Origin: a virus
Reading direction: 5' to 3' (one strand)
IMG/VR virus record: IMGVR_UViG_3300030106_006632
Span: 1 to 33,584 of that record
Length of the DNA stretch: 33,584 bases
Positions 1 to 23,499 of the stretch are shown here, one piece after another. The translations under genes were made by a program, and so were the position numbers. Numbering within the stretch: position 1 is the stretch's first letter; every line of letters begins with the position of its first letter. The notes under the pieces are model-generated. The model did no database searches. It was given only the letters and a program-made list of their open reading frames with translations, and was not told the origin of the DNA.

Positions 1-8
1 AAGCTCAG

Positions 9-2285
9 ATGCTTTTTGATATCGCAAATACAGCATTAGCTTTTGCTAGTCCTATGCCTAATGAACCTATGGGGTTGAGTGGGGCAGAAAGACTGGCGTT
101 GGCGGCCCAAGGCACACAGCTTTTTGATAAGATTGGCACAAGGGGTCAGCAACTAGAAGCTTTTAAACAAGCACAGGAAAAAGATAGAAGAGCATTAAGC
201 TTAGGTGCATTACAATCTGCTGAATCTCAACTAGCTGCGGAAAAAGCAGCGGCTGCCAAAGGATCAAAAACAGCTAAAGAAGATAAGTATGAAGGTACTT
301 TGGAAGATGGAAAAAAAGTTTATGGAACTTTTGAACAAATTTTAACGTTAAACCCAAAACAAATTAATAAAATCGGAACAGCAGAACAAACTGAAAGTTT
401 TTACAAAGGTTTTACACCTGACGGTGAACTTATTGTGGGACCAGATCCTAAATATGTAAGAGATCAAGGCGTTACAGATGTTGTTAAATTAACGGGACAA
501 GTCGATCCATTTTCCTTGGCAAAGTATAAAGCTGAATTAGAAAATAATAAAATTGAACTTAAAAATAAATTAAAATCAGAGCTCTTTGAAAAACAATTTG
601 AAAGTGAAAAACAAAAAGAATTAGAATTTGCTAATTTGAAAAATGATTTTACTAAAGAACTTGCACTTCTTAAAATATCAGAAAACAGAAAAGATAAAGA
701 GGATGCTCAAGCTTTTGAAATAGAATTTGCTTTAAAAAACCACGAATTAGAAAAAGAAAAAATAAAAACTAATTTTGAAAATAAAATTAAACTTCGTTTA
801 CAGGAGTTTGGATTTGATAAAGAATTAGCTGAAAGAAAATTTGTAAACGATAAAGAACTTGAAGCTTTAAAACAACAAGGTAGAAACGAAAAATTAGAAA
901 AAGAAATAGAAGCAAGGGCTAAATTAGAAAAAGCTAAATTAGATTTAGCGACAGAAAAAGAAAATAATCTTGAGGCACAAAGAAAAATTAATAACGAAAT
1001 TGCAAAAAACAATCAAGAACTTGAGTTTGCTAAATTTCAATTAAGTAAAAGATTAAAAGAATACGATATGGCTCAAGGTCTTAAAAAAACAGAGCTTGAA
1101 AGAGAAGTATTTGATCTTAAAACCCGTGTTGAAGAAGCTGCTATGAAAAATGCCGAAGCTAATTTACAGCTTAATACAGAAAAGTTAGCATTAAAAGAAA
1201 GAGAAGTAATAATAAAAGAAGAAGCTGCTAAAGTTGATAATATCTTTTCATCAAGTAATTTAGGTTCTTCAATGAATTTATTGTCGAATGATGATTTGAG
1301 AAATCGATATGAAAAAGGTCTTACCGATCAGACAGAAAATAATCAAATAAATTTTGCAATAAAAGTATTATCAAAAAGAACAATAATATCGCTTCCTGAT
1401 GGAAGTAAAAAGGAAAGTGTTCCAATTGGTATACCATCAATTTGGAAAGAAAGTATTAGAAAAAGAGCTAATCTTGGCGCCCAAGATTTTAGTTTAGGTG
1501 GAGGTGTTGAAGCTCCTGTTGAAGAAGAAACAGTTGAAGTTTCCCAAAATTTTCGTGTAGATCCTGATGTTTTAAATATTATAAAAGATCCCCCGCCTGA
1601 AGAAATATCGGAAATGGATACCCCAGAATTTAAAAGAAAGCTATTTTCAAGAGAGGGGGGACTTAACAAAGAAAGTGAAGAATTTAAAAAAATACCTCTC
1701 AATATAATAGATCCGTCCATAAGATACCCAAGAGCCACAGGGCTTGGTGAGGCTTTAAATAGATTAAAATATTTTGGTCAAGAAGTAACCAGAGAACTTT
1801 TTGGGACACAACCTTTAGGTGAAAAAGGGATGGAGCTCGCTAAGGCAGATAAAGATATAGATAATATTAGAGAGGCTATTCTAAATACTATATTTAATTT
1901 TGCAGACAATAGAATTTTACAAGCTACTCAAAACGCTATTAGAGCAAATGCTTCTCAATTATATCCTGGTCTTACAAAGTCTGATGAGAAAGCCCTTTCT
2001 ACTTTGGAAGCTTTAAGTGGCTTACTTGAAAAATCTTTTGAGGATCATGCTCAACTTGATCCTCAATATACTCCTGGTGCTAAAGGTCTTATAGGTCCTA
2101 AAACAATTCAAAAAGTACGAAAAACTATGCCTGAACTTTTAAGCCTGTTAAGAGAAGTAGATACTCTAAAAGACTCCTACGAAACTTATTTAAATGAATT
2201 AAGAACTTCTCCAAGATCAGGAAGAAATATTAATGAAATAAAGAATATAATTCAACAACTTCAAAAAGAGAATAAAGATGAGTGA
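9..2285 (+). CDS. Large coiled-coil virion-type protein (possibly 5'-truncated)
   Basis: I do not recognise a named family. The 758 residues begin with a hydrophobic, Ala-rich stretch (about residues 1-45). A very long charged region rich in Glu, Lys, Leu and Ala (about 175-400) follows, typical of an extended coiled coil, and then a mixed globular C-terminal half. The reading frame is open to the left edge (two sense codons precede the ATG) and only eight bases are visible upstream, so the true start may lie outside the window and no ribosome-binding site can be judged. It overlaps the next gene by 8 bases, so the two are probably translationally coupled. Position beside a 1221-residue virion-like protein suggests an internal or tail-associated structural protein; this is inference from context and composition. 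Base composition is strongly A-rich, unlike the terL/portal block. Confidence 0.75.
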   Translation: MLFDIANTALAFASPMPNEPMGLSGAERLALAAQGTQLFDKIGTRGQQLEAFKQAQEKDRRALSLGALQSAESQLAAEKAAAAKGSKTAKEDKYEGTLEDGKKVYGTFEQILTLNPKQINKIGTAEQTESFYKGFTPDGELIVGPDPKYVRDQGVTDVVKLTGQVDPFSLAKYKAELENNKIELKNKLKSELFEKQFESEKQKELEFANLKNDFTKELALLKISENRKDKEDAQAFEIEFALKNHELEKEKIKTNFENKIKLRLQEFGFDKELAERKFVNDKELEALKQQGRNEKLEKEIEARAKLEKAKLDLATEKENNLEAQRKINNEIAKNNQELEFAKFQLSKRLKEYDMAQGLKKTELEREVFDLKTRVEEAAMKNAEANLQLNTEKLALKEREVIIKEEAAKVDNIFSSSNLGSSMNLLSNDDLRNRYEKGLTDQTENNQINFAIKVLSKRTIISLPDGSKKESVPIGIPSIWKESIRKRANLGAQDFSLGGGVEAPVEEETVEVSQNFRVDPDVLNIIKDPPPEEISEMDTPEFKRKLFSREGGLNKESEEFKKIPLNIIDPSIRYPRATGLGEALNRLKYFGQEVTRELFGTQPLGEKGMELAKADKDIDNIREAILNTIFNFADNRILQATQNAIRANASQLYPGLTKSDEKALSTLEALSGLLEKSFEDHAQLDPQYTPGAKGLIGPKTIQKVRKTMPELLSLLREVDTLKDSYETYLNELRTSPRSGRNINEIKNIIQQLQKENKDE

Positions 2286-5200
2286 TGTACCCTCTTTAGT
2301 AACTTTTACTGACGATCAGTTTCAATCTTTAATGAAAGAAGAAGGATTAGAAAATGTCGTTGCAGGCGTTGTAAAGATTGCTGAGGATAAACTAGGATCA
2401 GAAAGAGTTAATCTTCAAAGTTTACGCAGTGGAGAAGCCCCCATATTAGACCTTTTTCCAGGCTATGCTAATTTACCACCTGAAAAAAGACAATTAACCT
2501 TTGAAGAAATATTAACTATTTTTACAAATGTAGAGGATTACGGAAAATTTGACGATTCTGGAGAAGGAGCGGGAACAAGAGCTTTTGTTTCTGGTCTAGC
2601 TAGGACAGCCCCAGAAACAATTGCGGGAGGTTATGGTGCGGGAAAAGGAGTCGCTTTAGCTTCACCTTATGCAGCAATGATTCCACCCGCAGGTTTGTTT
2701 GGATTAGCAGCAAAAGGTGTGGTTTTAGGAGTAGGTGGTATAACAGGTGCTTTGTTAAGTGCTTTTGCAGCCGATGAGGTAGAAAAACAATTAATCGGAG
2801 AGCAACCTCCTATAATACCATCTTTACAATCACAAAGAAATTGGGCTGAGACCACGGCTCTCGGACTTTCTTTGCTTAATTTTCCAAGACAAGTTGAAAA
2901 TGTAGCTAGTCCTATGGCTAAAAACGTAGAGTTTTTACAAAATTTTAAGAACGTAGCTTCTGGTGATTTTGCTGCAAAATTAAATGATATTACAAAAAAC
3001 ACTGCTAAAAACGCAGGTCTTAGCGAAAAATATTTTAAAATGGCCCAAGAGGCTATGGAGAAAAAAAATAAACTTGGGACTATGTTTGGTAAGGGCGCAC
3101 AAAAAAATTTAGGAATTAAATTCTTTAACCCTGGAGGATATTTATTTGATCCAACAAAAGGTCCAATCTCAGAAAGAATTGCAACAAGTATTTCAAAAGG
3201 AATAGGAGCCTCTTTAGAATTTGCCAGAAAAAAACCAAAAACTTTTATTACAATTGAAGGTGGGGCCGCAGCAGGGGCGGGAACGGCTGCTGCTATAGCT
3301 CAAGAAACTGATCCATACGATCCAAGCACACGTTTTCTTTATGAGGTAGCAGGATCTGCCATAGTTCCAATTCCTGCACAGTTAGCTGTAGATAAGGGTC
3401 CTGAAACAATTAATACTATGATTAATGCAGTTAGATCATATCTCGGTAGAAAAAAAGAGGACGTGGTATCAAATAAATTACAAAGAGAAAGTGCGGAAAG
3501 ATTTTTAAAAGCTATTAGATTATCTGAAGAGTTTGATGACCAAACGGGTGAAGTTAAATTACAACAACTAATTAAAGCCTTGGCAGAAGAAGGTCCCTCT
3601 TTGTCGGTATCAGCTTTTGTAAAAGAAAAAGATTTACCTTTTGCAAGAACAATTTTAGATATTGAAAGGGAACTAATTGAGTCAAATAAAAGATTAAGCG
3701 TTGCTTCTGAAAAAGGTAGAGAGCAGTTTATGGAAAGGGCTCTTACTACAATTAACACTTTAGTTGCTAGTGGTGATCCAAATGCTATTCAAATAGCCGC
3801 CAGACTTGAACAAAAACTTTTTGAAGAAAATATTGAAAATAACATATCTCTTGCGTTGGAAAAACATTTTGACGCGATAAAGAGGGTTGTTGGAGATGAA
3901 CCGTTAGACCCTTCAAGACAAAAAGAATTGTCTGAAACTATGTATAATATTTTAGATCAACAAATAAAAGCAAGCAAAAAAAGAGAAAATGAACTTTGGA
4001 AAGCTACAGGTAATTTACCTTTAACAACTTTTACAGCAAAAAATGGTCGAGTTACTTCAATTCCAAACACTTTACGAATTATGAATCAACCAACTATCAG
4101 GGGTGGATTAAGAGGAATGTCAGAAGCTGAAATAGCTGAGTTTGAAACTGCTCTTGGAAGTTTAAACAAAGATGTAGAGACTTTTAGAAAATATTTCTTA
4201 CCTAGAGAGAATGATACTGATGTTCCTACAGCAAATCCTGTTACAACAGCCAAATTATATAGTATGAGACAAATTGCTTTAGAAAAAGCAGCGCAATTAA
4301 AAGCTAATAATCAAAGACAAGCATCCTTTGCTATGAGTAAATTTGCTGATGCAATTTTGAGAGATATGCAGGGTGCGGATAATGGTAACGAAGCTTACAA
4401 TAAAGCCAGAGCGTATACTAATGCTAGAAATAATGTTTTTACCAGAAGTTTTTATGGAGATTTACAAGTATTTGATAGAAACAGATCTTTAAGACTTTCT
4501 CCAGAACAATTACACAGAGAGTTTTTTAAAGGCGGTAACGATAAAACAAGCGAAAGAGTAAAAGAAATTTTTGCAGGAGTTCAATTTGGTGTTGACCATG
4601 GTTTACCTGAAGAATTATTTAATCAACTCACGACCAAAGAAGCTATGGATATTTTAATTAGAGATTCTTTAAAAAAGTTTGTGTCTGAAAAAAAAGATCC
4701 AATTACAAATAAAACAATAGTACAAATAGATCAGGGAAGACTAAATAGATGGAGACAATCACCTGGAACAAAAGAATTATTTTCAATATTTCCTACATTA
4801 GAATTAGATACTAGAACAGCAAGTAAAGCAAAAACTCTATTAGACGCTGAAGTTACACCTATTATAGCAAGAGGTGAGTCACCTGCTGCTAAAGCTTTTC
4901 AAAGCGTAATAAAATACCAAATGAAACCAATGGAGGCTGTATCAGACGCATTAAAATCAGATGATCCCATAGGTGCTTTACAAGAACTCGTAACATTAGC
5001 TAACAAAAGAGATAATTTTAAAGACCCTATAACTGGAGCTAATTATACATCCGCTCAAGCTAGAGAGGGTTTAAGAAGAGCTATCTTAGATCATGCTCAA
5101 ACACATTCAGGTCAGACTGGTTTACAATTTAATCCAACTTCTTTTTACAATAAATTATATACAAGAATAAAAGGCACAGATCCTGGCAAAAACGTAAGCA

Positions 5201-15396: not shown

Positions 15397-15561
15397 ATGG
15401 ATACAACCAAATGGAAGAGTGTTTTAGTTCCGAAAGAAATTTATGATGAGATTAAAAAGCTTTCCAAGGACGAAGGACGCACCATTAGTGGTCAGTTGCG
15501 TTTAGTTTTTGATTATTATAAGAAAAAACAACCTCTCACGCCCTACAGTACCAAGGATTAA
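15397..15561 (+). CDS. Small ribbon-helix-helix (CopG/Arc-like) regulator
   Basis: A 54-residue protein with the plan of a CopG/Arc/MetJ-type repressor. A short beta strand (W-K-S-V-L-V-P) is followed by helix A (K-E-I-Y-D-E-I-K-K-L-S-K-D-E-G) and helix B (T-I-S-G-Q-L-R-L-V-F-D-Y-Y-K). Such proteins dimerise and bind operators with the paired strand. The start ATG has AGGAG six bases upstream, and a consensus-like promoter lies directly before it. It is a single-gene unit isolated by the polymerase terminator, and it runs into the converging minus-strand gene with a 4-base overlap. It is a plausible regulator of the divergent control region around 15.3-16.7 kb; its targets are unknown. Confidence 0.75.
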   Translation: MDTTKWKSVLVPKEIYDEIKKLSKDEGRTISGQLRLVFDYYKKKQPLTPYSTKD

Positions 15562-16061
15562 AAAATACCCATTGGAAAAGGTTTTGGAGTTCCGCCCTCA
15601 AAATCTGCACTAGGAAACTCATTTTTAATAAGCGTTTGTATACCTGACATCAGACCCTGTACTTTGCCTTGAGATTCTTTAGCCGTATCCTGCATGGCTA
15701 ACATATTCAGAAAAAACTGTAAGCCTTGTAATGGGTTTTGATTAATTTTGGGAGGAATTAATCCAGGCATAGGAGAACTAGTGGGATTGTAAGTGGACTC
15801 AGTAGCCTCAAGTAAATCTTTTCTTAATGCATCAAGATTGGAGATTGCAGGTTGACCCGCAACAGTTGAAGCTGTGACTCCTGTAGAGGGTGTTTGAATA
15901 TCAGGCGTCATTTCCGACCCTGAATCCATCATAGCACCACCAAGATTACCACCTAATAAATCTGCTGATGAAACTTGTTGTGCTTGTAATTGAGGTTGTT
16001 GAGCCTGCTCAAACAAACCACCGATACCGCCAATACCAAATTGATCCAAAGCCATTTTCAT
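15558..16061 (-). CDS. Hypothetical protein, Gly/Gln-rich, minus strand
   Basis: The 167 residues are not recognised. The N-terminal part is low-complexity, with Gly-Ile-Gly repeats then Gln-rich (Q-A-Q-Q-P-Q-L-Q-A-Q-Q). The middle is Ser/Thr/Pro-rich and the C-terminal half helical (L-Q-G-L-Q-F-F-L-N-M-L). Composition resembles a minor virion or scaffold-like protein more than an enzyme, but its isolation among regulators on the opposite strand argues for something else. No Shine-Dalgarno sequence precedes either possible ATG (16061 or 16055). A TATAAT box lies only six bases upstream of the first, so the mRNA may be leaderless. Confidence 0.65.
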   Translation of the reverse strand: MKMALDQFGIGGIGGLFEQAQQPQLQAQQVSSADLLGGNLGGAMMDSGSEMTPDIQTPSTGVTASTVAGQPAISNLDALRKDLLEATESTYNPTSSPMPGLIPPKINQNPLQGLQFFLNMLAMQDTAKESQGKVQGLMSGIQTLIKNEFPSADFEGGTPKPFPMGIF

Positions 16062-16067
16062 ACGTTT

Positions 16068-16095
16068 ATTATAATAAATTAAAAAAAAATTACAA
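16068..16095 (-). promoter_or_regulatory. Minus-strand promoter giving a near-leaderless mRNA
   Basis: Read on the minus strand: TTGTAA (16095-16090), 16-base spacer, TATAAT (16073-16068). The expected start is at about 16061, which is the A of the gene's ATG. Confidence 0.55.
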
Positions 16096-16110: not shown

Positions 16111-16139
16111 TTGCAATATCTTATAAAATCCTTTATAAG
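16111..16139 (+). promoter_or_regulatory. Promoter for the candidate ncRNA
   Basis: TTGCAA (16111-16116), 17-base spacer, TATAAG (16134-16139). The -10 region lies in an inverted repeat CTTATAAA/TTTATAAG (16120-16139), a possible operator. It points into a gene-free structured segment that ends in a strong terminator. Confidence 0.55.
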
Positions 16140-16145
16140 TAAAGT

Positions 16146-16255
16146 GTTTAGTTGAAAATTTTTTCAATTTAGACAACTCCGTAATAAAGACCTTGGTTTT
16201 GCCTGTAAAGATTCCAAGGTCAACTCAGGGGGACACAACTGTCCCCCATTTTTTT
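16146..16255 (+). ncRNA. Candidate structured small RNA, about 110 nt
   Basis: A plus-strand segment between two minus-strand genes, with its own promoter upstream, three predicted hairpins and a terminator, and no usable reading frame. Hairpin 1: TTGAAA/TTTCAA near 16152-16167, enclosed by AGTTG (16150-16154) and CAACT (16174-16178). Hairpin 2: GACCTTGG (16189-16196) with CCAAGGTC (16214-16221), 8 bp with a 17-base loop. Hairpin 3 is the terminator at 16228-16255. It matches no RNA family I recognise (not tRNA, tmRNA or 6S). The end runs into the stop codon of the minus-strand zinc-protein gene, so it could also act as antisense to that transcript. Expression is inferred, not shown. Confidence 0.5.
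16228..16255 (+). terminator. Strong intrinsic terminator
   Basis: GGGGGACA / CAAC / TGTCCCCC is a perfect 8-bp stem with a 4-base loop, followed by A and seven Ts. The U-tract exists only in the plus direction, so it terminates plus-strand RNA even though the flanking genes are on the minus strand. Confidence 0.9.
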
Positions 16256-16683: not shown

Positions 16684-16713
16684 CTTATAGTTTATTACGA
16701 AGGAGTTAAAATA

Positions 16714-16902
16714 ATGTTAAAATTTACAAAAGAAGAAACAGAAATGTTGCTAAGATCGGGTGTACAGTATGAACGGGCCGTAAATCTATATGGTCCAAAT
16801 GTCGATGGTCTATCCAAAAAAGAAGTAAAAGGTATTAAATCTGGATTGTTAAAGCTACAGAATTACTGGGAAAAAAATTTTAATAAGTATTCAGATGAAT
16901 AA
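16714..16902 (+). CDS. Small hypothetical protein (62 aa)
   Basis: An acidic/basic helical protein with no recognised motif (starts MLKFTKEETEMLLRSGVQYE). AAGGAG (16700-16705) precedes the ATG by eight bases, and a full consensus promoter lies upstream. It is the first gene of a probable early operon. The next gene starts two bases after its stop. Confidence 0.7.
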   Translation: MLKFTKEETEMLLRSGVQYERAVNLYGPNVDGLSKKEVKGIKSGLLKLQNYWEKNFNKYSDE

Positions 16903-18129: not shown

Positions 18130-18170
18130 AGTGATCGAAGATTATTTTAACGAAACTTACGGAGTTCAAT

Positions 18171-18581
18171 ATGTTAGAAAAAGACTTAATTACTTTTAAA
18201 TTAACCAAGACCGAATGGTTCTTGCACCATGATAGAATACAGTTGTCGGATTGTCTTGAAGATGTTTTCGAATGTTGGTTTCAATATGAAGATGACCCAA
18301 GAGAAGCCGTTACTAATCTGTTTTCAAAAGTTCAAGATGCTTGTTACAATGAACACAAAAATGGTTCTTGTACCGTAACTTTAAATTTAAATAATAGATG
18401 GGACTTAGAACTTTGGAATGAATCTATAGATGGTAATGCAATGGTATGTGGTTGGATTTCTGATATAAAATCGGGATATAATGATGATAAATCACTTTTA
18501 ACACATTGTCGTAACATTAACAAAAAATTAGATTCTATTGACCCACATGGCCGTTATTTGTGGGCAAGGTGGATAATATAA
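18171..18581 (+). CDS. Hypothetical protein (136 aa)
   Basis: Not recognised. The 136 residues are Trp- and Asp-rich (W-F-L-H-H-D-R-I-Q-L-S-D-C, W-F-Q-Y-E-D-D-P-R-E-A, W-D-L-E-L-W-N-E-S) with several cysteines, and appear to form a single mixed alpha/beta domain. An ACGGAG precedes the ATG by about seven bases. It is a single-gene unit: a strong, possibly regulated promoter with a boxA leader drives it and a terminator follows immediately. Both flanking gaps carry TGT(C/A)AC half-site arrays, suggesting either tight control of this gene or that it lies inside a replication origin region. Confidence 0.7.
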   Translation: MLEKDLITFKLTKTEWFLHHDRIQLSDCLEDVFECWFQYEDDPREAVTNLFSKVQDACYNEHKNGSCTVTLNLNNRWDLELWNESIDGNAMVCGWISDIKSGYNDDKSLLTHCRNINKKLDSIDPHGRYLWARWII

Positions 18582-20008: not shown

Positions 20009-20042
20009 ATCTCATACATTTAATTATTACGGAGACACAGTA

Positions 20043-20453
20043 ATGACAGAAGATCAAGTAATAAAAACCCTTAACATTCATGTTACGAAAAGAATGAAAG
20101 TAAATGATGCAGGGGTCTGCACTATGATTGAAAAGAATAATATTGATGCAGATAAAAACTTTAGACAATTCATGTCTTTATTCGGGGTGGACTACGAACT
20201 TCTGGGTAAAGGCGGTAAAAATGGTAGGAAACTACTTGCTCAATACTGCAATGGTGATCCTTGTGTAATCAATTGTTACATTGTTAATGGTAAAGGTGGC
20301 CGTAAAGATAGACGATTTTCTTTATCTAAAATAAAAAAATATGCACAACCAAATGATCTATTAGCTTTTACTTTTAAAAAAGATGAAAATGGTAATACTA
20401 TTTTAGTAGTAAATGTAACCGCCTGTGCTAAACAAAATAGAAAGGTGGGTTAA
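20043..20453 (+). CDS. Hypothetical protein (136 aa)
   Basis: Not recognised. A basic, Lys/Gly-rich 136-residue protein with G-K-G-G-K-N-G-R-K and G-K-G-G-R-K-D-R-R segments and a beta-rich C terminus (N-T-I-L-V-V-N-V-T-A-C). GGAG eight bases before the ATG and a consensus promoter upstream support it. Next gene starts at the base after its stop codon. The basic repeats would suit nucleic-acid binding; nothing more can be said. Confidence 0.65.
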   Translation: MTEDQVIKTLNIHVTKRMKVNDAGVCTMIEKNNIDADKNFRQFMSLFGVDYELLGKGGKNGRKLLAQYCNGDPCVINCYIVNGKGGRKDRRFSLSKIKKYAQPNDLLAFTFKKDENGNTILVVNVTACAKQNRKVG

Positions 20454-21314: not shown

Positions 21315-21366
21315 CTTTATCTCATAAATGATTATTATTAGGGACGGGACATTTTCCGTCCCTTTT
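21311..21366 (+). promoter_or_regulatory. Promoter-hairpin module 1
   Basis: TTGACT (21311-21316), 16-base spacer, TATTAT (21333-21338), then GGGACGG / 8-base loop / CCGTCCC (21341-21362) followed by TTTT, then TTATTATGGAG leading to the gene at 21386. The hairpin could be the terminator of the upstream unit or a structured 5' end for the downstream mRNA. The same module recurs twice. Confidence 0.6.
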
Positions 21367-21385
21367 ATTATGGAGATTACTTAAA

Positions 21386-22210
21386 ATGATAGAACAAATT
21401 GAAAATATGACCGATCAGGAATTAGTCGATTATTTATTCGATAAAGTGGACGTTAAAAAAACTATTTATAGAATGTTAACTGAAAACACAGGAATTAATT
21501 TTTTGGATTCGGGCGGGGGTAATGGTAGGCATTGGCAACGTAACCAAACGAAAACAATTAAAGACTTTCAAGATGAACCCGAGGCTACTTTAAGTTTTGA
21601 TGTTAGCGGAGATTATATATATTTAGATCCAACTATATCCGTATTTCATAAATTATCTAAAGTATTAGATGAATGCAAAATATGTAAAGATTTTAACGCT
21701 TTAAAAGTTAATAATTGGGATAGTGATAATTATTATGGAGTAAGTAAAGAGGGAGATGAATTTTTAAATTCCTATGGATTTAAAACTGTAAGCGGTGATG
21801 AAAATGTTGACTGGAATACATACAATTGGGATAACTGTTTCAGTCAAGTTGTTCAGGGTACTAATTTAATTAGTGATAATAACGAAAATTATGTTCTCAT
21901 TCAAATACATCAGGGCGCGGATGTAAGAGGGGGATATACGGACGCTAAACTATTTATTATCTCGCATGGGTATGATTGTTTACATTATTCTGTACATGAT
22001 GATAGTTGTATGTTTAGCGTTAAAAATCCTGAAATTGATGTTTTAACAAAAGATATGTTTAATTTTACCCGCGATAATAGATTATTTATAGACTATAGAG
22101 GCGGTTATTTTAGCAACGGGGACGGGCTAGAATTGGATCAAGAATATATTAAAAAGTTTGCAACGCTATGCGATCATAAAACTGTATCGGGAACATTGTA
22201 CGAATATTAA
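21386..22210 (+). CDS. Conserved phage/plasmid protein of unknown role (274 aa)
   Basis: A 274-residue acidic protein of a type I have seen beside DUF932 genes in phages and plasmids; no function is known to me. Recognisable segments are S-G-G-G-N-G-R-H-W-Q-R-N (about 42-53) and V-L-I-Q-I-H-Q-G-A-D-V-R-G-G-Y-T-D-A-K-L (about 170-190), the latter strongly conserved-looking. Many aromatic and Asp residues suggest a beta-rich single domain. GGAG before the ATG and the promoter-hairpin module upstream support the start. The DUF932 gene follows after a near-copy of the same module, so the two are probably co-regulated. Confidence 0.75.
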   Translation: MIEQIENMTDQELVDYLFDKVDVKKTIYRMLTENTGINFLDSGGGNGRHWQRNQTKTIKDFQDEPEATLSFDVSGDYIYLDPTISVFHKLSKVLDECKICKDFNALKVNNWDSDNYYGVSKEGDEFLNSYGFKTVSGDENVDWNTYNWDNCFSQVVQGTNLISDNNENYVLIQIHQGADVRGGYTDAKLFIISHGYDCLHYSVHDDSCMFSVKNPEIDVLTKDMFNFTRDNRLFIDYRGGYFSNGDGLELDQEYIKKFATLCDHKTVSGTLYEY

Positions 22211-22213
22211 TAC

Positions 22214-22271
22214 TTTACTTTTTCTCATATAAATGATATTACTAGGGACGGGGTGTTTTGCCCCGTCTTTT
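22214..22271 (+). promoter_or_regulatory. Promoter-hairpin module 2
   Basis: TTTACT (22214-22219), 17-base spacer, TATTAC (22237-22242), then GACGGGG / TGTTTTG / CCCCGTC (22247-22267) followed by TTTT, then TTATGGAG before the DUF932 gene. Most positions match module 1, including CTCATA-A-ATGAT in the spacer. Confidence 0.6.
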
Positions 22272-22297
22272 AATTTAATTATGGAGTTATAAAAACA

Positions 22298-23281
22298 ATG
22301 AATAAAATAGCAGATAATTTAATAAACAACGCAATTGCAACCGCAGAAAATACCGCAAACGTAGTATTTCCGCCATTGGAAAAAGTAAATTTTTCGGCCG
22401 TAAAAACCCCGATTTATTTACGTAATGTTAGCGGGGATTATGTACCTGTACCAATGGAAACGGGTCAAGCTATTATTAGAACCGATAATAGCACCCCGTT
22501 AGGCGTAATGAAAAAAAGATATGCAATCGCGGATAATTCAGAATTAGATATAGCGGTGCGCGAGGGGCTAGAAGATTCACTTCCAAAAGAGGCCTTGCAA
22601 AATATTAAGCTTATCGAAAAAACTGCCGATAATGGCTCAATATGCCGTTGGGGTTATTCTTTCGACGGGTTAGGCCGAGATATTCGACAATTAACAGGAA
22701 GTAAAACTCAATTAAATTTTCGTGTTATGATTATTAATAGTTTTGGCGGTCAAACCGCTATTAGATTACAAGCGGGCGCAGAAGATTTATTTTGCACCAA
22801 TGGTTGCACATCTGCAGAATTAATGGCAACCGCTTTCGGTCATACCGCTAGTTTTAACCCCGCTCAGGTAAAACCATTTATTGAAAAACAAGTTGAATAT
22901 TACGAATTAAAAGTTCAAACTTGGCAAGCGTGGGCAAATAAAGAAATTAATTTTGATCAGGCTTTTAAAGTTTTACAAGATAATTACCCCGCGTCCGAAA
23001 GTGAATTAAGAAGAGCAGAAAAAAAAGGAATTACTGCGGGTGAAGCAAAAAGCAGAAAAACCGCGCAATTGATGGAGCAATATGAGCGAGAGTGTGAACA
23101 ACGCGGCTCAACAGTGTGGGCTCTTTATTCAGCGTTAACTTTCTATAGTTCTCATTCGGAGGGTTCATTCACTGTTAAAAATTCTGCTAATCGGGATAAT
23201 GTAGAAACAACACTAATACAAAGAGAGCGAGAAGTTAATAACGTAACCGCGTCCGAAAGTTTTCTTGAACTAGCTATGTAA
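22298..23281 (+). CDS. DUF932 family protein
   Basis: A 327-residue member of the DUF932 (phage/plasmid-like) family. Typical features: the N-terminal Y-L-R-N-V-S-G-D-Y-V-P-V-P, R-T-D-N-S-T-P-L-G-V-M-K-K-R-Y, a central F-R-V-M-I-I-N-S-F-G-G-Q-T-A-I-R followed by F-C-T-N-G-C, and the C-terminal G-S-T-V-W-A-L-Y-S-A-L-T-F-Y-S-S-H. The molecular role is unproven; family members occur on phages, plasmids and integrative elements, often with replication or anti-defence genes. Codon choice is noticeably richer in CG-containing codons (GCG, CCG, CGG) than the left-arm genes, hinting at a different recent origin. GGAG before the ATG and module 2 upstream support the start. Confidence 0.85.
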   Translation: MNKIADNLINNAIATAENTANVVFPPLEKVNFSAVKTPIYLRNVSGDYVPVPMETGQAIIRTDNSTPLGVMKKRYAIADNSELDIAVREGLEDSLPKEALQNIKLIEKTADNGSICRWGYSFDGLGRDIRQLTGSKTQLNFRVMIINSFGGQTAIRLQAGAEDLFCTNGCTSAELMATAFGHTASFNPAQVKPFIEKQVEYYELKVQTWQAWANKEINFDQAFKVLQDNYPASESELRRAEKKGITAGEAKSRKTAQLMEQYERECEQRGSTVWALYSALTFYSSHSEGSFTVKNSANRDNVETTLIQREREVNNVTASESFLELAM

Positions 23282-23289
23282 TTTAATAC

Positions 23290-23351
23290 TTTACTTTATC
23301 TTACATTTAAATTACTACTAAAGGCGGGGTATTTATCCCCGTCTTTTTTTT
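23290..23351 (+). promoter_or_regulatory. Promoter-hairpin module 3
   Basis: TTTACT (23290-23295), 17-base spacer, TACTAC (23313-23318), then AAGGCGGGG / TATTTAT / CCCCGTCTT with a G-U pair (23321-23345) and a run of Ts, then AATTACGGAG before the gene at 23374. This is the third copy of the same arrangement, with the hairpin sequence changed but pairing kept. Confidence 0.6.
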
Positions 23352-23373
23352 AACAATTACGGAGTAAATAAAA

Positions 23374-23499
23374 ATGAATATAGAAGAATTTGAAAAATAT
23401 CATTTATGCGATTTTGAATATCTAGAAGAAATGAATTGTATTGAGGACGAAGAAATAAAAATTCTGGAAACATTTAGAAAATTGAAAGAAAGCGAGTAA
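23374..23499 (+). CDS. Tiny acidic protein (41 aa)
   Basis: The 41 residues (M-N-I-E-E-F-E-K-Y-H-L-C-D-F ... K-L-K-E-S-E) are strongly acidic and helical. ACGGAG lies nine bases upstream and the third promoter-hairpin module precedes it. No recognised motif. Confidence 0.5.
   Translation: MNIEEFEKYHLCDFEYLEEMNCIEDEEIKILETFRKLKESE

Follow-up and report, generated by a model that had tools for sequence, protein, structure and literature searches.

The unit at 16111-16255 on the plus strand of the window, the whole 33.6-kb virus record analysed here, is likely to encode a small RNA by which the phage prevents ribosome binding to a group of its own early mRNAs, as judged from sequence comparison. 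Between hairpins 1 and 2 lies an unpaired linker, the predicted functional core, whose sequence is antisense to Shine-Dalgarno leaders of the phage. Such an RNA would very probably damp the translation of an entire group of genes.

The putative small-RNA gene and its conserved parts

The closest cultured relatives of the window phage are the Pelagibacter phages HTVC027P and HTVC023P, the seawater phage 023Pt_psg01 and the lake phage DSL-LC04, which share 50-64% protein identity with it (large terminase and DNA polymerase A). The unit is neighboured by a 167-aa minus-strand gene without known family and a zinc-ribbon gene, with DNA polymerase A 0.9 kb upstream. It contains the following features:

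16111-16139, plus strand: sigma-70-type promoter TTGCAA-N17-TATAAG, recognised from the sequence and nearly identical in six relatives
16146-16174, plus strand: 5' hairpin 1, from the fold, with the putative 5' end of the RNA at about 16146
16173-16189, plus strand: anti-Shine-Dalgarno linker (seed) ACAACUCCGUAAUAAAG, mostly unpaired in the fold, with CTCC at 16177-16180
16189-16221, plus strand: hairpin 2, GACCTTGG/CCAAGGTC, dispensable (missing in the relative L005)
16228-16255, plus strand: rho-independent terminator and U-tract, found in every relative with the stem or loop changed

The promoter consists of a -35 element TTGCAA (16111-16116), a 17-nt spacer and a -10 element TATAAG (16134-16139). 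The preliminary description had placed the -10 inside an inverted repeat. This repeat was a perfect 8-bp one, CTTATAAA-ATCC-TTTATAAG at 16120-16139, and gave a single match in the window at up to 3 mismatches (0.02 expected). The terminator hairpin, GGGGGACA-CAAC-TGTCCCCC at 16228-16247, is followed by ATTTTTTT, and the T-run is missing in the reverse direction, in agreement with the claim that it works in the plus direction only. Scans found 18 sigma-70 promoters versus 16.8 in shuffles and 3 terminators versus 3.2. Since these scans alone did no better than shuffles, the case for the gene rests on conservation. The minimum free energy of the RNA was -38.1 kcal/mol versus -21.3 ± 3.3 for shuffled sequences (z = -5.1; 0 of 200 shuffles as good). 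The sequence, this fold and six relatives confirmed the plus-strand unit of promoter, hairpins and terminator proposed before.

All six IMG/VR relatives (6/6) retained the promoter together with hairpin 1, the linker and a terminator, and CAACTCCGTAAT within the linker was invariant among them. In L005, the most divergent of the six, the promoter and the linker CAACTCCGTAAT were nearly unchanged, hairpin 1 and the terminator were of new sequence with the pairing intact (hairpin 1 is TGTTTAAAA/TTTTAAACA in L005/G005), and hairpin 2 was absent. The constant part is the promoter and the single-stranded linker, as expected of a base-pairing small RNA. Compensatory changes had been predicted for hairpin 2. 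None were seen there: the hairpin was lost in L005 and elsewhere showed one wobble change (GACC to GATC). They were found in hairpin 1 and in the terminator, where automatic folding of nine type-A members gave compensatory pairs in the stem. The earlier reading as a structured small RNA is partly supported: conservation, structure and relatives speak for a plus-strand gene of no known class; it had given no function and had focused on the dispensable hairpin 2.

Consistent with the earlier statement that the RNA matches no known class, a search of Rfam 15 returned no family above the gathering score for the small RNA. Weak matches (among them rliF, 24 bits, minus strand) were far below gathering scores and were rejected, and a pattern scan with GACCTTGG/CCAAGGTC returned only unrelated loci. 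Next to the unit, a minus-strand promoter-like element TTGTAA-16-TATAAT (window 16061-16095) stops some 6 nt short of the 167-aa gene's ATG, and the mRNA of this gene would therefore be nearly leaderless. The gene itself (15558-16061, minus strand) diverges far faster than its flanks, with 64-67% identity in relatives versus 92-97% DNA identity.

Complementarity between the linker and early-gene leaders

The lead came from a repeat search, in which the inverted repeat I1 joined 16167-16188 to its complement at 16691-16712, the Shine-Dalgarno leader of gene 16714. With gene starts taken from a simple ORF caller, the predicted targets in the window were:

16691-16707, plus strand: leader TTTATTAC-gaa-GGAGTT of gene 16714-16902 (inverted repeat; cofold rank 3 of 42; 3-nt bulge)
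18157-18166, plus strand: leader TTACGGAGTT (CTTACGGAGTT before the start) of gene 18171-18581 (start scan, cofold)
20024-20034, plus strand: leader TTATTACGGAG (ATTATTACGGAG before the start) of gene 20043-20453 (start scan, cofold)
21364-21375, plus strand: leader TTTATTATGGAG of gene 21386-22210 (cofold; orthologs in G004, G6c and L174 track their own seed)
22278-22288, plus strand: leader ATTATGGAGTT (AATTATGGAGTT before the start) of the DUF932 gene 22298-23281 (cofold; tracks seed type across phages)
23356-23365, plus strand: leader ATTACGGAGT (AATTACGGAGT before the start) of the 41-aa ORF 23374-23499 (cofold rank 1 of 42)

When the RNA was cofolded with 42 start regions, the six predicted targets took ranks 1-6, with -10.3 to -14.8 kcal/mol versus a median of -4.2 kcal/mol. 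The motif ATTAYGGAG occurs 6 times in the window versus 0.46 expected. The product of gene 22298 is a DUF932 protein (E = 2.9e-11), and the leader and gene at 16714 are replaced in the close relatives L003 and L004. Replication and structural genes of the window phage carry different leaders, so the six targets form a tagged subset in the early region. They lie 0.4-7 kb from the small-RNA gene on the same strand. A trans-acting small RNA is expected to have an unpaired seed that complements several mRNAs from other loci, as the linker does here. Hairpin-plus-T-run units were observed immediately upstream of target leaders (window 21340-21375, 22250-22290 and 23330-23365). Any promoters must therefore precede these hairpins, and the target mRNAs may each begin with a 5' stem-loop.

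The complementarity was then counted across phages. In 43 contigs with 1004 starts, contiguous complements of at least 10 nt were found at 51 leaders, 1 upstream control and 2 in-gene controls, and those of at least 9 nt at 82, 4 and 10, respectively. At a threshold of at least 8 nt, 123 were observed versus a mean of 28 with linkers shuffled keeping CTCC. When matches were anchored at GGAG and at least 5 further pairs were required, the phages' own linkers gave 49 leader matches versus 19.7 ± 6.9 for type-permuted linkers (0 of 2000 as high), and shuffled linkers gave 4.9. Some linkers in these tests were first spotted through matching leaders, so the held-out test is cleaner: 59 contigs (794 starts) were chosen from a viral scan by linker (seed) and terminator alone, and complements of at least 10 nt were found at 42 leaders, 0 upstream and 0 in-gene positions. 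As the contigs are related, the counts are not independent of one another and overstate how independent the evidence is; greater weight falls on the type-level swaps and on the orthologous leaders.

Because of G-U pairs, linkers of types A and E had equal scores on the leaders of the window at a threshold of 5 nt or more; only the types that differ more therefore demonstrate specificity for the window itself. A duplex-energy swap of 24-nt linkers, unanchored at the Shine-Dalgarno site, ranked the own linker first in 4 of 21 contigs, with the window, G004 and G006 at mid-rank. Its score was driven by G+C-rich flanks, and several of the linkers were wrongly picked terminator neighbours. This swap was poorly designed, and the anchored and contiguous-complement tests were used instead. 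Several contigs, L280, L286 and L212 among them, have the RNA and plenty of sequence, yet no target of at least 9 nt.

It is improbable that the shared sequence is a DNA motif, namely an operator or promoter element that overlaps the Shine-Dalgarno sequence and lies in opposite orientation in the unit, with no RNA pairing. A motif and its complement are identical in double-stranded DNA, the unit's promoter carries an inverted repeat, and TCCCATA elements recur in promoters of this phage group, all of which would suit such a motif. However, G-U wobbles made up 122 of 282 non-Watson-Crick positions at leaders versus 378 of 1133 elsewhere (OR 1.52, p = 0.002), a preference that RNA pairing would explain and a DNA motif would not. 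The motif is also anchored on GGAG at ribosome-binding distance, and its complement lies in the unpaired linker between the 5' hairpin and the terminator in almost all members of the family.

Matching linkers and leaders in related phages

About 40 related contigs carry a counterpart of the small RNA downstream of DNA polymerase, with a 5' hairpin of changing paired stems, an anti-Shine-Dalgarno linker and a terminator. Further RNAs in polymerase relatives lie 0.3-1.8 kb downstream of the polymerase on the same strand. In nearly all members the short 5' hairpin and the linker are at most a few nt apart, and by sequence there are more than 10 different stems. Stems rebuilt with the pairing kept include GAACATG/CATGTTC, GAACACCA/TGGTGTTC, GTGACC/GGTCGC, CGTGGCA/TGCCACG, GAGGG/CCCTC, AGGGTT/GGCCCT, TGTAGATG/TGTCTACA, TGTAGAGC/GCTTTACA and the TGTTTAAAA/TTTTAAACA stem. 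In L191 and L210 the predicted linker appears to be placed in a hairpin loop (GTGCTCCGTAGGCAC).

No such unit was found in the examined stretches of the cultured phages HTVC023P, HTVC027P, 023Pt_psg01 and DSL-LC04. A blastn search with two RNA units against known phages gave chance-level matches only, and a type-A pattern search of bacterial and archaeal genomes gave 0 matches. The sole Rfam match, which lies outside the small RNAs, was a glutamine riboswitch aptamer (RF01739, 55.9 bits) at L175:8301-8351 on the minus strand, about 330 nt from that phage's small RNA. A recurrent TTATCCCATA / TATGGGATAA element was seen in the promoters of small RNAs and of some target genes in L204, L173, L209, G6c and L161; it is possibly a binding site of a phage or host regulator.

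Linkers and leaders change together, as in the pairs CUCCGUAAU / AUUAYGGAG, CUCCAUGU / ACAUGGAG, CUCCGUAGUU / AACUACGGAG and UUCCCGUAGUU / AACUACGGGAG. The 59-kb contig G006 (IMGVR_UViG_3300029787_000038, L139-L141; observed at 1-3455 and 59059-59174) consists of a circle, with ends that repeat 3456-3573 at 97%, and an attached 3.4-kb alternative strain path of the window type. The two paths have different small RNAs, each with matching leaders. The circle RNA is at the same place, after the polymerase and a ribbon-helix-helix gene, and has TTGACA-17-TACGGT, then UCACUCCAUGUGAUAAAG and a long terminator; the circle leaders are ACATGGAG, the complement of CUCCAUGU.

Orthologous leaders gave the same picture. 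The leader of gene 18171 is aaacttacGGAG in the window versus ttaaacatGGAG in L174, where the ortholog has the leader ACATGGAG and the seed is CTCCATGT. For gene 21386 it is TTATTATGGAG in the window, TTATTACGGAG in G004 and TATACATGGAG in G6c and L174. The DUF932 leader is attatGGAG with linker CTCCGTAAT (window, G004), aacatGGAG with CTCCATGT (G6c, L174), aactacGGAG with CTCCGTAGTT (L173, L204, L274), aactacGGGAG with TTCCCGTAGTT (L222, L259, L294) and taactacgaGGA with ATCCCGTAGTTA (L164), so that one extra G in the leader accompanies one extra C in the RNA. Exceptions are the DUF932 leaders of L165, L177 and L280 (taacataacaaaGGA), which match their own linker poorly. Such covariation of seed and target is what a trans-acting base-pairing small RNA would show.

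This covariation also bears on the idea that the small RNA acts mainly on host mRNAs and is complementary to phage leaders through a common style of Shine-Dalgarno sequence. Many ribosome-binding sites of the host would pair with CUCC, and some phage small RNAs are known to target the host (review PMC12197685). But the match extends past GGAG, is missing at control positions and co-varies with the phage's own leaders, which makes a mainly host-directed role very unlikely. A minus-strand origin, either as the leader of a small peptide gene with Shine-Dalgarno ATTACGGAG (followed in L005 by 12 nt, ATG and a 21-codon frame, with a TTG frame in the window) or as an intergenic part of a minus-strand operon, is scarcely credible, because a 1-nt deletion breaks the frame in L002 and L003, for which the peptide was rejected, L005's three differences in the promoter stretch are all non-synonymous in the peptide frame, the terminator functions in the plus direction only, and the plus-strand architecture is kept in relatives from other genomic settings.

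In the cultured HMO-2011-like Roseobacter phages CRP-3 (L234) and CRP-212 (L237), extended leaders common to several early genes were observed (CTAACTTGGAG versus CTAACTGGAG) on gp57/gp56/gp55 and their counterparts, including a homolog of target 22298. These two phages share leader motifs, and no convincing antisense RNA was detected in them; CRP-3 has a terminator-linked CCAGTTA at L234:952.

Proposed function and relation to known small RNAs

The unit would be transcribed into an RNA of about 110 nt that begins with a short hairpin, leaves a linker exposed and ends in a terminator hairpin. The linker would combine an anti-Shine-Dalgarno core, CUCC, with a phage-specific extension. Its pairing partners would be the extended Shine-Dalgarno leaders that a set of the phage's own genes carries in the early region (between DNA polymerase and large terminase), one of them the DUF932 gene. 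Pairing of 9-14 nt over the Shine-Dalgarno sequence would prevent 30S binding, a mode of action established for many small RNAs, and the tagged gene set would be turned down together. We infer that host RNA polymerase transcribes the gene and that an occluded Shine-Dalgarno sequence leads to repression and not to another outcome. As the promoter is of the host sigma-70 type, the RNA is probably produced early in infection or for its whole duration. A search of ten related records, of which several are 50-60 kb long, found no tyrosine integrase (PF00589), so control of lysogeny is unlikely. We favour the view that the tagged early genes are damped or shut off in concert, with immunity to co-infecting relatives as a possible further role. 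More tentatively, the RNA might be the master post-transcriptional regulator of the early block in a phage group that is large and apparently virulent, where a diverging linker-leader code would let each RNA recognise its own kind. Such a code could provide a timing switch and, in addition, determine specificity against relatives that infect the same cell.

The c4 RNA of P1/P7 and the CI RNA of P4 are immunity RNAs that arise by processing of the leader of the operon under their control, govern lysogeny or immunity and have few pairing sites. The window RNA resembles them as a small phage RNA predicted to pair with phage mRNA leaders and to control phage genes. It differs in being an independent unit with its own promoter and rho-independent terminator, as is typical of trans-acting base-pairing small RNAs (here seen at the sequence level), in having several dispersed targets, and in that no tyrosine integrase was detected. 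AbcR and related alphaproteobacterial RNAs are chromosomal and repress several mRNAs of host genes through an exposed anti-Shine-Dalgarno stretch. The window RNA is predicted to have such a stretch for several mRNAs too, and a terminator hairpin; it would differ in targeting phage genes, and no Rfam model matches it.

According to the review PMC12197685, OOP and aQ of lambda are antisense RNAs that lower phage gene expression and are cis-encoded opposite one target. The window RNA would likewise be a phage antisense RNA that lowers phage gene expression, but it is encoded apart from its several predicted targets, on the same strand, and has a short seed. VpdS of phage VP882 affects phage and host mRNAs (PMC12197685). 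Unlike the window phage's RNA, it belongs to a temperate phage and to an Hfq and quorum-sensing network, and the passages of that review considered here describe no co-varying anti-Shine-Dalgarno code on phage leaders. Because OOP, aQ, VpdS and others have been described (PMC12197685), base-pairing small RNAs as such are familiar; what looks new is one that spans a phage family and bears a co-evolving address for a set of the phage's own genes. Searches of open-access literature of incomplete coverage found no report of such an RNA or of a phage-wide leader code with a co-evolving anti-Shine-Dalgarno linker.

If the proposed function is true, an abundant aquatic phage group coordinates a set of its early genes by a common extended ribosome-binding site and a matching antisense RNA. 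The linker-leader code would be readable, so that targets could be predicted from sequence in uncultured phages, and it would provide a natural set of orthogonal translation switches and a handle on genes of unknown function such as DUF932 and DUF7227. DUF7227 proteins were another recurrent predicted target family (L204:10767, L173:16306 and L221:19342).
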